Position numbers and translations under genes: made by a program
The notes under the pieces: model-generated
Seen by the model: only the letters and a program-made list of their open reading frames with translations
Told to the model about the DNA's origin: nothing
Database searches by the model: none
In this document: piece by piece, positions 33,091 through 40,951 of the stretch
How the letters are laid out: each line of letters begins with the position of its first letter
Numbering within the stretch: the first letter of the stretch is position 1
DNA from: Cohnella sp. SGD-V74
Lineage (GTDB): Bacteria; Bacillota; Bacilli; Paenibacillales; Paenibacillaceae
Length of the DNA stretch: 64,000 bases
NCBI RefSeq assembly: GCF_003001675.1
Contig: NZ_PVYW01000001.1
Coordinates: forward strand, 434,001-498,000
Direction: 5' to 3'

Positions 33091-34593
33091 TTACGGATTT
33101 ATCGTAATTGCTCTCGGAGTTGCTCCTACAGTAATTGTTGCGATGACGGTGTCGGTATATCCGTCAATGACGGATACATTATTCGAGACCCTGTTATTGA
33201 CGTACACTCTGCCCGTGGCAGGACTGACCGCTGCACCGGATGGACCGTCTCCCACAGTTATAGTTGCGATGACATTATTCGTAGTGCCGTCAATGACGCT
33301 GACATTATCCATAAAATCATTGGCGACGTATACGCGATTCAGCAACGGATTCACGGCAACTCCCAGAGGTCCGCTCCCTACTGTTACGGTCGCGATAACG
33401 GCGTTCGATACACCATCGATGACAGATACATTTGCAGACACATAGTTCGTTACATAAATTAAATTGAAGACCGGATGGACTGCAGCGGAAACGGGAGTCG
33501 AACCTACTGATACGGTTGCGGTAATCGTATCGGTAAACCCATCAAGAATGGAAACATTGTTAACTGTGGCATTCGCGACATACACGCGGCCTGTCGCCGC
33601 ATTAACCGCCACCCCCATAGGATTCGTCCCAACCGTTACCGTCGCGATCACCGTGTTGCTCAAGGCGTCAATAACGGAAACGTCGTGAATACCGCCTCTT
33701 ACAACATAGACCCGATTCAGCAAGGGGTTGACAGCCACACCTCCCGGGATATTGCCGACAATAATCGTTGTCGCCACTGAGTCGGTGTTTCCCGATATAA
33801 GCGACACACTGGCATCAAATTCATTGCTTACGTAGATGCCGTTCGTAGACGGATTAACGGCAATTCCTTCGGGAAAGCCCCCGATCGTAACCGTAGCCGC
33901 TACCGTATTCGTATCTCCGTCAATCACAGATACACTTCCGCCAATCCGATTCGCCACATAAATCCGATTTACAAGAGACGGGATAACCGGCCCAGCCGAT
34001 CCTGTTGGTCCCGTCGGCCCGGCCGGGCCTGTTGCACCGGTTGCCCCCGTTGGACCCAGCGCTCCAGTCGGGCCTGTTGCACCGGTTGCTCCTGTCGGTC
34101 CAGTTGGACCGAAGACAGAACACTCCACAATCGCGACCATCGCAACGTCATCCACGAACAAATCCGCAGTCCCTGCAATCGGAAAAGTTTGAATAGCTAC
34201 CAACGCCTGCGTCCCTCCGGCAGGAACAGGAGCAGTCGTCTGATAGATTTCCACCCAATCGCTGCCTTCAAGGCTGGTAATGCTGTGCGGGACGTACGAG
34301 AATAACCCGGTTCCCAGGAAATTCAACGAATCATCGTAATAGTTCAACCCGATCACCGCAATAACACCGATCGGCCCCGCCGTTCTGGAAAACGCTGCTT
34401 GAATCTCAAAACTCTCGCCTTCGGAAACCGGAACAAACTGATAGATTTGCGACAAAGCATCTCCACCAGTTAATCTCGCCGTGTAGAAGTCTAGATGACT
34501 TCTTTCATCCGTTACCGTCGCCCCTGTCCCGAGCCAAGGTCCCAACGAACCCGTTTCAAATCCGCCGTTTATAATTCGATTTTCAATAGACAA
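33091..34593 (-). CDS. NTTRR-F1 head - collagen stalk - seven-repeat YVTN beta-propeller protein
   Basis: The 500-residue protein shares its first roughly 155 residues with the collagen-like protein ([19 protein letters not shown] ... [12 protein letters not shown]). A stalk of about 14 Gly-X-Y triplets follows (161-203), then exactly seven 42-residue repeats of the YVTN type ([36 protein letters not shown]), which should close into one seven-bladed propeller. No signal peptide is visible. The TTG start at 34593 follows AGGACGGTGAG. A sporulation-type promoter stands 58-69 bases upstream. I infer a spore-surface protein displaying a propeller instead of a long collagen filament. Confidence 0.88.
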
Positions 34594-37749: not shown

Positions 37750-37784
37750 AAAAGACGCCCATCCCGAGTCGGGGGCGTCTTAAG
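37750..37784 (-). terminator. Intrinsic terminator of the peptide-modification operon
   Basis: On the minus strand AAGACGCCC pairs with GGGCGTCTT, followed by TTCT and an A/T-rich tail. The stem begins within the stop codon of the M50-like gene, so the operon ends here. Confidence 0.88.
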
Positions 37785-38976
37785 CCTGCCGAAAGGCGCG
37801 TTTCCTGTTTCTTCTGTCCTTTAGAGCCGTACCGGCGCCTATGACGTACAGCGCAAGCCGGAGTGCCGCCAGCGACAGCAGAACGGCCCCGTCCCAGAAC
37901 GGGCCGTCCAGGGAACCTCTCGTCACTTGGCCGATGGCCTGCGTGATCGCGTAGTATCCCGCTGGAATGCTGTAGACGATGAACAGGCACGCCACCGTTC
38001 CGATTCCGGCGAAATACGCGGCGGCGAACCACCGGCCTGCCGTCCGTTCGCTGCGGGGCAAGCTCGCCCATCCGGCGCGCGCCGCTTCGTCCCTCTTCCA
38101 CAGCTTGCGGAGAAACAGCCTGCCGCTTCCGGCGAGATCCGCGGAATGAGCGGCGTTGCCGATTACGTAATACACGTCCGTGCGAAGAAAGACCATGAAC
38201 TGGGAGAGCAGCCCGAGCAGGAGCAGCAGCGCGACCAATCTCGCCATCGCATGGGCGAAGCCGCCCTCCGGCAAAACGTTCTGAGCCAGCATGGCCGCCA
38301 GCAGCACCGCGCTATCCCAAGCCATTCCCGCCAGATACGGGAAATACCGCGCGTTCTTCTCCTTTCCCCACAGCCCGGTCATATCGGTCTCCGCCACGAC
38401 GAACACGAACCGGATATTCAACCTCATCCGGGCGCTGACTCCCGCGCCGTAGGCGGCCAGCAAGTGGGCGCATTCGTGAAGGAAGATCAGCAGGCAGGCC
38501 GTCGCCGAGACGAGCAGCGAATTTGTGCCGATCACGGGCAGAACGAACATATCCCGGTAGCTGGGAAACAGATCCGGATCGTTCAGCACCATTCCGATCA
38601 ATGCCGCAAGCGCGAGCAGATACGCCCATTTCGCATGGGAGCGGAACAGCGCCGCGCCGATTCTGGTCGCCAGAAGCTCCCTCTTCCTGGGCCGCGGACG
38701 ATCCGCATCGTGACTGCTCCGTCCCAGCAAGCCGAGCTCCGCCAGGTCGGACGCGAAATCCGCCACGTCCAGATCGAGGCCCTTCTCCTCCGCGATTCGC
38801 CGCTTGATCTCCGCGACTGTCCTCGTTCCGTCGGCCAGCTCGACGACGAATACAGCCGGCCCGGGCACCCGGATAAACCTGGGAATGCCCGGGTCGCCTA
38901 TCGTATAATGCTCTCCGTCCCGCTGGACGGTCAGATGAGACAGATCGATCACTTCGTTCTCGTCCGCCTTCGGCAT
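37780..38976 (-). CDS. PqqD-like domain fused to an M50-type membrane zinc metalloprotease
   Basis: The 398-residue protein starts with a PqqD/RRE-like winged-helix region (about 10-88; PGPAVFVVELADGTRTVAEI, FASDLAELGLL) and continues with about seven membrane helices. HECAH at 167-171 is the zinc motif in a membrane helix, and FLRTDVYYVI near 265 resembles the second M50 motif with a metal-binding Asp. Such membrane metalloproteases (YydH-like) act in several RiPP systems. The gene starts 13 bases after the E1-like gene with AAGGAGGG upstream. I infer that it cleaves and/or exports the modified peptide of 40211-40294. Confidence 0.85.
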   Translation of the reverse strand: MPKADENEVIDLSHLTVQRDGEHYTIGDPGIPRFIRVPGPAVFVVELADGTRTVAEIKRRIAEEKGLDLDVADFASDLAELGLLGRSSHDADRPRPRKRELLATRIGAALFRSHAKWAYLLALAALIGMVLNDPDLFPSYRDMFVLPVIGTNSLLVSATACLLIFLHECAHLLAAYGAGVSARMRLNIRFVFVVAETDMTGLWGKEKNARYFPYLAGMAWDSAVLLAAMLAQNVLPEGGFAHAMARLVALLLLLGLLSQFMVFLRTDVYYVIGNAAHSADLAGSGRLFLRKLWKRDEAARAGWASLPRSERTAGRWFAAAYFAGIGTVACLFIVYSIPAGYYAITQAIGQVTRGSLDGPFWDGAVLLSLAALRLALYVIGAGTALKDRRNRKRAFRQA

Positions 38977-38989
38977 CCCTTATCCCTCC

Positions 38990-40141
38990 TTATCCGGCCG
39001 GAACGCCGGATTCTGCCAAGGCGAACAGCTTCTCCATCGGTACGGGCTCCGGGCCTTCCGGCGGCCTTCCCCGTCCGCAGCTCGGACAATCGTCCGCCTT
39101 CGGAATGTTCCGATGGGAGACGCTCATCCCTTGAAAATCGATCAGTCCGAACGGCATCGGGAACGGCTCCCCATAGCCCGTCAGCCGCTTGGCGATCTCG
39201 GAAGCGATCAGCGACGTAATGACGGCGACGTTCGGAGCGAAGCCGGGATTGCCGAAATCGGCGTCCGGCTCCGCCCGGTTCCACTTGCGCTTCGTCGTCT
39301 CCAGCAGCTCCGGCTCCGTGCGCATGATGTGCAGCAACCGGCAGTCGGTGCAGCCGCTCTCTGTCGGATCAACTCGATAATAGAAGCCGAGCTTGTTGCC
39401 GATCGACACGTAATAAGCGGGAATATTCAAATGCAGGCAAGCGGAATTGACGTATCGCGATCCGAGCAAGGGAGGCGTATCGATCGCTCCGACCACGAAA
39501 TCCGCTCCGGATATCGCCTGCAGCAGCGAGGCCGCGCTGTCGACCTTGAGCTGCACGGCTTCCACACGGATATCCCCGTTAAGCTCCTCCAGACGGCGCT
39601 TCAGCGCGACCGTCTTATACTCTCCGACGTCCTTCTCCGTATAGAAAAATTGCCGGTTCAAATTGTTCAGTTCGACCCGGTCGCAGTCGACGCCGACAAT
39701 CGTGCCGACGCCCATCGCCGCCAGCCATGCCGCGATGACGCTGCCTCCGCCGAGCCCGACGACCGCAACCTTGGCGTTCTTCAGCTTGACCTGACAGTCG
39801 TATCGGCTGTTCGTCAAGCTCTCGTGCAGAGAGAAGTAGGTCAAATTGTTTTTGTACCGGACCAACTCCCGCTCCGTAAGGGCCGACGGCTCGGTCGACT
39901 CGGCTTCGAGCAGCCGGTGCCTGTCGAGCAGTGCGACCGCGTCCTCCGTGTCCCCGAGCGTCAGGCCCGCCTCTTGGGACAGCTCGGCGATCGTCCGGGT
40001 TCCGTCGAGCAGCCGGACGAAGGCATGAACGGTCCCTTCGGGATCGGGAATTTCCAGCGACGCCCGTTCCATCTTGAACCGAATGACTCCGTCCCCGAGG
40101 CTCATCACGTGCCGGCAATACGGTTTCAATTTTGGCTTCAT
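38990..40141 (-). CDS. E1/ThiF-like adenylating enzyme with PqqD/RRE-like N-terminal domain
   Basis: A 383-residue protein. Residues 1-82 look like a PqqD-type peptide-binding winged helix (GTVHAFVRLLDGTRTIAELS, VALLDRHRLLEAE). Residues 115-360 form a ThiF/MoeB fold: ATP loop VVGLGGG (127-133), DCDRVELNNLNRQ (152-164) with the ATP-contacting Arg and Asn residues, candidate Mg-binding Asp221 (GAIDTPP), and a complete four-Cys zinc site (C264, C267, C352, C355). RRE plus adenylation domain is the layout of MccB of microcin C. It should activate the C-terminus or a side-chain carboxylate of the neighbouring 27-residue peptide. ATG 40141 has GGAG 10 bases upstream; an ATG at 40207 would put the hairpin inside the gene. 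Confidence 0.87.
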   Translation of the reverse strand: MKPKLKPYCRHVMSLGDGVIRFKMERASLEIPDPEGTVHAFVRLLDGTRTIAELSQEAGLTLGDTEDAVALLDRHRLLEAESTEPSALTERELVRYKNNLTYFSLHESLTNSRYDCQVKLKNAKVAVVGLGGGSVIAAWLAAMGVGTIVGVDCDRVELNNLNRQFFYTEKDVGEYKTVALKRRLEELNGDIRVEAVQLKVDSAASLLQAISGADFVVGAIDTPPLLGSRYVNSACLHLNIPAYYVSIGNKLGFYYRVDPTESGCTDCRLLHIMRTEPELLETTKRKWNRAEPDADFGNPGFAPNVAVITSLIASEIAKRLTGYGEPFPMPFGLIDFQGMSVSHRNIPKADDCPSCGRGRPPEGPEPVPMEKLFALAESGVPAG

Positions 40142-40174
40142 ACTCGGTATGCTCCGCCTCCTGGTTAAGGGAAA

Positions 40175-40196
40175 GGCCGTACGCATGCGTACGGCC
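40175..40196 (-). promoter_or_regulatory. 22-bp perfect palindrome between peptide and E1-like genes (attenuator candidate)
   Basis: GGCCGTACGCA and TGCGTACGGCC are exact complements with no spacer, starting 14 bases after the peptide stop. On the minus strand the stem is followed by TTTCCCTT. A leaky terminator or RNA-stability hairpin here would give more peptide than enzyme mRNA, as is common in RiPP operons. Confidence 0.65.
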
Positions 40197-40210
40197 CCGC
40201 CGTTCATCGA

Positions 40211-40294
40211 TTAAGCTCTGAAGTCGAGCAGTTCCGGGTCCGCATGGATCGCGGTCGGCGTCAGGTTTTCCACTTCGCGGATGACGATTTTCAT
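40211..40294 (-). CDS. 27-residue peptide, probable RiPP precursor
   Basis: This gene is too short for routine calling but well supported. AGGAGGTGAATGCA leads into ATG 40294, and the 28 codons end in TAA at 40211. The peptide begins MKIVIREVENL and ends PELLDFRA; the middle is TPTAIHAD. It is acidic, has no Cys, and has only two Thr and no Ser, so lanthionine, sactipeptide or thiazole chemistry is unlikely. A -10-like TATAAT lies 28 bases upstream of the ATG. An E1-like enzyme with a peptide-binding domain and an M50-type protease follow in the same direction. I infer a precursor whose C-terminal carboxyl (…FRA) or an Asp side chain is activated. No family recognised. Confidence 0.75.
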   Translation of the reverse strand: MKIVIREVENLTPTAIHADPELLDFRA

Positions 40295-40321
40295 TGCATT
40301 CACCTCCTCTTCACATCTCGG

Positions 40322-40327
40322 ATTATA
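40322..40327 (-). promoter_or_regulatory. -10-like element of the peptide operon
   Basis: TATAAT on the minus strand, 28 bases before the peptide ATG, in the 69-base gap after the response-regulator gene. No good -35 lies 17 bases upstream, which would suit activation by the neighbouring LuxR-type regulator. Confidence 0.5.
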
Positions 40328-40363
40328 GGTCCGCCGGCGTGATCCGGGGAGGATGAAAATCAA

Positions 40364-40951
40364 TCACCCCCAGGTCGGGAGCTTGTCGCGAATGCTCCTC
40401 ATCTGCGTCTTGATCGTGTTCTCGGACTTGAACAGCCGGTCGGCGATCTGCCTTTTGCTGAAGCCTTTGCATTTCAGCCGGTAGACTTCCCTCTCCATCG
40501 GAGTCAGCGTCATCAGCTGCAATTCCTCGCGCACGATTTCAGCGGCATCCGGATGGATCGCCGATCGATTCGCATACGCATCCCGGATCGCCTTGGCGAT
40601 GTCGCCGGTCTTCGACCGGTCCAGAGCGTTCACCGCACCGTTCAGAAAACCGTTCAAAATCGCCTCCCGGTCGGCGTTCGACACGAGCATGATCGTCTTC
40701 AGCCTGACCCTTCTCCTGATCCCCATCTCGCGCACGGCGCGCGCGCGTTGCTCCTCTCCGGCGGACACTCCCGCGTCCACCAGCACGATGTCCACCGCTT
40801 CGTCATTGACCTCCTTTATTGCTTCTTCCACCGTCGGGGCCGTCCCGATCACCTCGATATCCGACTCTCTCTCCAACTCCTCCGTCAGCTTCCGCCGCCA
40901 TTGCCGATCCTCTTCCGCCAACGCCACCAGCAGAACTCTGATTTTCCGCAA
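40364..40951 (-). CDS. LuxR/NarL-type response regulator
   Basis: A 195-residue regulator: receiver domain 1-125 (IRVLLVALAEEDRQWRRKL; phospho-acceptor Asp in DIVLVDAG) and a C-terminal LuxR helix-turn-helix (LTPMEREVYRLKCKGFSKRQ, then IADRLFKSENTIKTQ). The TTG at 40951 follows GGAGGGAAATGCG at 7 bases and gives the expected RKIRVLLV beginning; the frame opens upstream at 41041. No histidine kinase gene is adjacent, so it is either an orphan or served by a distant kinase. Its position just before the peptide gene, same strand, suggests it controls the peptide-modification operon. GGTCAT inverted repeats stand about 70-105 bases upstream. Confidence 0.85.
   Translation of the reverse strand: MRKIRVLLVALAEEDRQWRRKLTEELERESDIEVIGTAPTVEEAIKEVNDEAVDIVLVDAGVSAGEEQRARAVREMGIRRRVRLKTIMLVSNADREAILNGFLNGAVNALDRSKTGDIAKAIRDAYANRSAIHPDAAEIVREELQLMTLTPMEREVYRLKCKGFSKRQIADRLFKSENTIKTQMRSIRDKLPTWG

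Follow-up and report, generated by a model that had tools for sequence, protein, structure and literature searches.

What is made by a locus that sets a 27-residue peptide directly in front of a predicted adenylating enzyme and a predicted membrane protease? The locus lies in a 64,000-nucleotide stretch of Cohnella sp. SGD-V74 (contig NZ_PVYW01000001.1, positions 434,001 to 498,000; hereafter the window, with positions counted from its first letter), where three minus-strand genes stand within 37780-40294 in a single order: the peptide, a ThiF/E1 protein, and a membrane M50 protein (Table 1). We interpret these genes as probably a self-contained cassette for a ribosomally synthesized and post-translationally modified peptide (RiPP), in which the peptide leader would guide adenylation by the E1-like enzyme, a ring would close, and the M50 protein would cleave the product. 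A reading made from the letters of the DNA alone (the sequence-only reading) had described a short gene with an excellent ribosome binding site, then an E1 enzyme, then a membrane HExxH protease. That observation was confirmed, with all three elements present, and the interpretation attached to it is partly supported.

Distribution of the E1-like enzyme

Relatives of the E1-like enzyme occurred in 13/394 genomes of the same family and 16/392 genomes of an order sample (E<=1e-30; the two sets overlap), in 6/104 genomes of another family in that order, each of them also counted in the order sample, in 28/398 genomes of a class sample (E<=1e-35), and in 1/398 genomes of a phylum sample, namely the window's own (E<=1e-40). 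The cassette was also present in Paenibacillus and Brevibacillus. In our locus numbering L037 is the window locus, and L079 and L084 are the same locus. The 45 E1 rows compared below are loci picked from the hits, not every hit, with one locus counted twice (L063 and L089).

Precursor peptide

We scanned for short open reading frames (ORFs) of 15-40 aa that have a good Shine-Dalgarno (SD) sequence and end 20-260 nt before the E1 start. Such an ORF preceded E1 in 30/45 rows, compared with 11/311 controls, which were ORFs of >=200 aa other than E1 in the surroundings of these E1 genes; L029 was omitted because its start is too close to the contig end, and L081 is mostly masked. Four of the 30 hits (L051, L077, L078, and L090) lacked the common leader by eye. 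Within the window E1 clade the peptide was found in 10/11 loci, which bears out the conserved short ORF expected by the sequence-only reading. The exception was L046, where the peptide was found neither at the locus nor in the whole genome (G498). E1 and a hairpin-like sequence remain there, though the M50 protein has no TD segment, and the peptide and this segment may have decayed jointly. A search found the window peptide in single copy in its genome, and an NCBIfam search of eight peptides returned no match.

Three leaders recurred, each followed by a core: MKIxIREVENLTPTAIH with a variable core in L037, L023, L017, L025, and L018, MTIEIREVEDLTPTMYK in L026 and L044, and MTIEIREVEELAPTxxK in L027, L028, and L045. 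Pairs among the five loci with the first leader differed in that leader by 2-8 synonymous vs 0-1 non-synonymous codon changes (8 and 1 between the window and L018). Judged from these comparisons, the short peptide gene is conserved beyond chance and has the constant leader and variable core of an RRE-dependent RiPP (RRE, RiPP recognition element). Position 17 was His in 5/5 clade-A peptides and Lys in 5/5 peptides of clades B and C; this residue possibly marks the border between leader and core that the protease reads, or else serves as an acceptor in clades B and C. The window peptide contained no Cys, Trp, or Glu-Glu, and the L026 and L044 peptides had one Trp each and a C-terminal Ile.

At locus L084, a single E1-M50 pair was preceded, 260-550 nt upstream of E1, by three tandem SD-led precursors with related leaders and different cores. 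A second E1 gene in this genome (G827), L083, had two precursors.

Predicted E1 adenylating enzyme

The E1 start at 40141 (MKPKLK, 383 aa) agreed with the alignment of relatives; we rejected a 405-aa version starting at 40207, which would read through the hairpin described below. The protein matched Pfam ThiF at 1.5e-44, and its sequence matched MccB, ThiF, and PaaA (5ff5) over query residues 2-217. Residues R163, K176, and D221 and Cys 264/267/352/355 were invariant in 30/30 aligned relatives, so that the ATP-binding residues and the four-Cys site are intact as first described; the roles of R, K, and D were taken from EnfB, as given in part of PMC12250964.

Evidence for an RRE at the E1 N-terminus came from profiles and models. 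A profile of 19 E1 N-termini found PaaA in the PDB (E=6.7e-4), just below some unrelated transcription-factor chains, and among 30 family members Pfam detected the PaaA-like N-terminal domain in 3, a winged-helix model in 2, and PqqD in 1. The window N-terminus as a single sequence found no RRE in the PDB. An AlphaFold2 model of the enzyme had a beta-beta-alpha-alpha-alpha N-terminus, and its top Foldseek matches were MccB (ranks 1-24) followed by PaaA (ranks 25-26), over 288-349 columns. On this model, whose mean predicted local distance difference test (pLDDT) was 62.4, the protein appears to be an RRE-E1 enzyme of the MccB fold.

We rejected a housekeeping ThiF/MoeB identity. In a ThiF-domain tree, from which five near-duplicate rows were dropped and HK_L096, a wrong ORF, was disregarded, four ThiF/MoeB-type rows formed their own branch (support 100/99) apart from the 11-row window clade (100/100), in line with the sequence-only reading. 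MccB, the other ThiF-type rows L020/L021, and the outer groups took no settled position.

An EPxxL-like C-terminal tail (A1 columns ~385-395, window E1 residues ~365-377) was present in the peptide-E1-M50 clades and missing from the aligned Asn-ending and genus g75 groups. This tail might dock the protease.

Predicted M50 membrane protease

The M50 gene stood beside E1 in 11/11 window-clade loci, two of these damaged, and the gap between the two genes was 13 nt in the window and -4 to +31 nt across the 16 loci measured. Residues H167, E168, and H171 were invariant in 27/27 proteins and D267 nearly so, being lost in L046, giving the predicted protein the HExxH and distal Asp of an M50 membrane protease. 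Sixteen of the 27 family members matched Pfam M50 at E<=0.01, the window protein reaching only E 0.23. Searched against NCBIfam, the window protein had no match at E<=0.01; among the relatives the YydH/LiaK model matched 3/27 and the daptide protease model 2/27, the window protein being in neither set.

Like E1, this protein has an N-terminus that resembles an RRE. Pfam PqqD matched 11/27 family members at E<=0.01 and the window N-terminus at E=0.0063, short of Pfam's cut-off, while searches of the PDB found PqqD at no better than E 0.1 with a profile of 18 M50 N-termini and E 0.59 with the single window N-terminus. The AlphaFold2 model (mean pLDDT 55.6) had N-terminal beta strands followed by helices. 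In a Foldseek search with it, ranks 1-8 went to chains of ThcOx, TbiB1, and PbtF, none with an E-value below 0.08, and unrelated membrane proteins appeared from rank 11 onward. ThcOx bears an RRE, and the TbiB1 and PbtF structures are titled as leader-bound RRE-type. An RRE in both the E1 and the M50 N-termini, as first proposed, is likely, with modest single-domain E-values.

The remote M50 homology of the window protein would also fit a scaffold, or the protease of some regulator, that is unconnected to the peptide. Given the RRE-like N-terminus, the place beside E1 throughout the window clade, and the tight spacing, we consider this very unlikely.

In genome G009 the M50 gene (L027:9330-10640) was split over three frames, through decay or assembly error.

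Intergenic hairpin and possible terminator

All ten aligned loci of clades A-C had a common stem (~GGYCGTAC...GTACGRCC) between the peptide stop and the E1 start. Its 12 pairs had 98.3% of cells pairing and 5 pairs changed on both sides, a covariation score reached by 0/500 shuffles, although the ten loci are related and kinship can inflate this control. The window sequence alone folded no better than shuffles (z -1.07), and the case for the hairpin rests on covariation across the ten loci rather than on the window fold. Folds judged by eye, with no shuffle control, gave a strong stem in the peptide-E1 interval of 23/25 loci, the exceptions being L034 and L049. Rfam had no match to the hairpin. 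A terminator scan did not report it, and only a short U-run follows the stem in the window. According to the portion of PMC6495379 used here, microcin C has a terminator between mccA and mccB, owing to which peptide mRNA is more abundant than enzyme mRNA; by analogy we infer that the window hairpin may act as an attenuator.

Where the sequence-only reading placed a terminator after the M50 gene, a possible terminator stem of 9 bp (AAGACGCCC/GGGCGTCTT) with a 12-nt loop was seen by eye; it was absent from the output of the terminator scan, which allows only shorter loops.

Comparison with known RiPP systems

The cassette shares with microcin C an RRE and a ThiF/E1 domain in one chain, the R/K/D ATP site and paired Cys of MccB (as aligned), a short precursor with a strong SD sequence, and a hairpin between precursor and enzyme. 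It differs in its precursor and in the M50 gene beside E1; no exporter was found to be generally common to the loci. An E1 fold model closest to MccB, together with the SD sequence and hairpin arranged as in mcc, would suit a microcin-C-like peptide-nucleotide, in which E1 adds AMP or CMP via a phosphorus-nitrogen (P-N) bond, as would the Asn-ending peptides (mostly KTTGL..N) of more distant relatives that have M50 before the peptide. For the window we consider such a product very unlikely. The P-N route requires a C-terminal Asn, as stated in part of PMC6495379, whereas the window peptide ends in Ala, as the sequence-only reading had pointed out together with the missing Cys, and 18/19 tabulated peptides of the window clade and sister clade end in a residue other than Asn.

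The M50-peptide-E1 order was found in L031, L034, L047, L048, and L049, with peptides of 19-20 aa, and these loci possibly make peptide-nucleotide products of the microcin C kind with an M50 protease. L033, L035, and L036 had 20-aa peptides before E1 ending WG[ILM]R[IV][AL]N and no M50 hit.

Other ThiF-type systems differed in their substrates. PaaA of pantocin A matched the window E1 in sequence, including the N-terminal RRE region, but the window peptide has no Glu-Glu, and there was no other pantocin-type enzyme among the scanned window neighbors. The GrcB thiolactone system likewise has an RRE and ThiF enzyme acting on a short precursor; the window peptide has no Cys, hence no C-terminal Cys, and no radical SAM enzyme was present among the scanned neighbors. 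EnfB (enterofaecin) and IndF, which activate a C-terminal Ile at its carboxylate and cyclize (PMC12250964 and PMC12150305, in the parts drawn on here; the latter adds that the enterofaecin structure requires further nuclear magnetic resonance), have in common with the window a C-terminal carboxylate free for activation and a precursor of ~20-30 residues. The (V/I)RKA of the EnfA leader is loosely resembled by the IRE of the window leader. However, the window peptide has no Trp where the EnfB and IndF substrates have one near the C-terminal Ile, and their clusters have transporters or an M16 protease where the window has an M50. By sequence, the window peptide is outside the substrate pattern of each known ThiF-type RiPP compared.

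By analogy with PaaA and GrcB, the enzyme may also activate the side chain of a core Asp or Glu, with an internal lactam, ester, or bicycle as the result. The match to PaaA includes the N-terminal domain, acids were found in 5/5 clade-A cores, and D or E stood at -4 in 4/5. Nevertheless, none of these acids is conserved from clade to clade and several sister-clade cores (QHSV, PHAS, GPSV) have no acid at all, and we regard this alternative as unlikely.

For the protease, the epipeptide (YydH/LiaK, EpeP) and pearlin (TglG/TmoG) pathways are a precedent, since an M50 membrane protease matures a ribosomal peptide there as proposed here (PMC10885120, in part). The window M50 differs in carrying its own RRE-like N-terminus and in being paired with an E1 enzyme.

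We found no paper on RRE/ThiF/M50 combinations in open-PMC full text. RRE-ThiF proteins have been broadly mined by sequence similarity network, as described in part of PMC12150305, and that published set may well contain these proteins unlabeled. The system of PMC13381572, whose headings name a signal-peptidase-type enzyme, we took as a different family. Within the open-PMC scope the cassette looks like an uncharacterized branch of a known RiPP family, not a categorically new system.

Proposed maturation and role of the product

In the pathway that we consider probable, the RRE of the E1-like enzyme would first bind the peptide leader (~MKIxIREVExLTPT). E1 would then use ATP to form an acyl-adenylate, most likely on the C-terminal carboxylate, the site reported for EnfB and IndF. 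An internal nucleophile of the peptide would capture the adenylate with loss of water, giving a ring, imide, or lactam. The M50 RRE would bind the same leader, and the protease would cut near the leader-core border and release the product at the membrane. The hairpin between peptide and enzymes would let the peptide be produced in excess. Because there is no conserved side-chain nucleophile, we favor a backbone imide like the one reported for EnfB.

Several results weigh against this pathway. Fifteen of the 45 E1 rows had no short ORF in the scan, the E1 of L083 has its precursors and no M50 nearby, and the ORF comparisons around E1 found no exporter common to the loci generally. No side-chain nucleophile is conserved in the core; the terminal DFRA of the window is not conserved, and the C-terminal sequence varies across loci, contrary to the conserved C-terminus that the sequence-only reading had envisaged. 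The AlphaFold2 models are weak (mean pLDDT as given above for E1 and M50) and were built from three sequences only.

Compatible with the proposed maturation is the question of role. The product may be a secreted signaling peptide and not an antibiotic, which we find plausible but somewhat short of probable. The cassette is minimal, with no immunity or exporter gene generally common to the loci, and a response regulator adjoins it in 2 loci. In one genus (g75) the peptide MKIQAKKVESVRTTAVAA was identical in 9/10 genomes whose E1 loci were read (L063, L067-L072, L074, and L075), with E1 and M50 behind it, and this identity suggests a conserved role, for instance in signaling. Against a signaling product, we found no conserved receptor or regulator, and window-clade cores vary between species. 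Stop codons, one or two each, inside 4/9 of the g75 E1 matches (L068, L071, L072, and L074) argue against a conserved role in that genus.

We tentatively suggest that these loci form a distinct RiPP class of Bacilli in which an E1 adenylator and an M50 protease, both RRE-bearing, would read the same leader in turn, with E1 making a C-terminal linkage so far undescribed for this family, on cores whose reactive end is free of Asn, Cys, and Trp; products would include near-invariant small peptides, possibly extracellular signals. ThiF-like RiPP enzymes have yielded a new bond in nearly every new branch tested (P-N, bicycle, thiolactone, imide, and indolylamide; PMC12250964 and PMC12150305, in part). 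The parts list here is very short (the peptide plus one enzyme each for activation and cleavage), both enzymes have RRE-like domains, and window-clade substrates are mostly without known nucleophiles. The cassette is therefore an easy three-part test system, suited to asking what chemistry the E1 performs and how a leader is handed over from modifying enzyme to protease.

Regulator and neighboring genes

The sequence-only reading had counted the upstream response regulator as a cluster member, which was not supported. A tblastn search with the regulator covered 30 loci, among them L017 and L024, which are duplicates, and L019-L022, which are not cassette loci; loci fetched later were not searched for it by name. 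Matches were found in L037, L023, L048, and L044, directly upstream only in L037 and L023, and with adjacency in only 2/30 loci we rejected it as a cassette member. The window genome encodes two more proteins of its family at 30-32% identity.

In two all-against-all comparisons of ORFs around E1, one of 25 loci and one of loci >9 kb, only E1 and M50 were generally shared. The next ORF groups of the second comparison (13, 10, and 9 loci) lay at scattered positions and were unannotated beyond two members: the first holds the regulator and the second an annotated ABC ATPase of L051. Upstream neighbors in the window were LeuA, a tRNA-editing domain protein, and an AraC-type regulator; downstream were a VTT-domain protein, an EamA protein, and an MFS transporter, and the EamA and MFS genes were not common to the relatives.

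Table 1 Features of the cassette and its flanks, in window coordinates.
Feature	Position	Strand	Remarks
Ribosome binding site AGGAGGTG, near-perfect	40301..40308	minus	6 nt 5' of peptide start
Precursor peptide, 27 aa, MKIVIREVENLTPTAIHADPELLDFRA	40211..40294	minus	leader ~1-17, core ~18-27, putative border
Hairpin GGCCGTAC-GCATGC-GTACGGCC between peptide and E1, attenuator-like	40175..40196	minus	covariation across loci
RRE-ThiF/E1 adenylating enzyme (predicted), 383 aa	38990..40141	minus	
RRE-M50 membrane metalloprotease (predicted), 398 aa	37780..38976	minus	HECAH 167-171, TD 266-267
Possible terminator stem 3' of M50 gene	37752..37781	minus	by eye
LuxR/NarL-type response regulator, upstream	40364..40951	minus	probably outside the cassette

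Elsewhere in the window, the minus strand at 33091-34593 encodes a collagen-like stretch fused to YNCE/NHL-type beta-propeller repeats. ThiF-like relatives with <60% identity were also found on 11 plasmid records from Salmonella, Macrococcus, Sporosarcina, Niallia, Nonomuraea, and Pantoea; in the Sporosarcina and Macrococcus plasmid stretches that were read, a transporter gene follows the ThiF-like gene.

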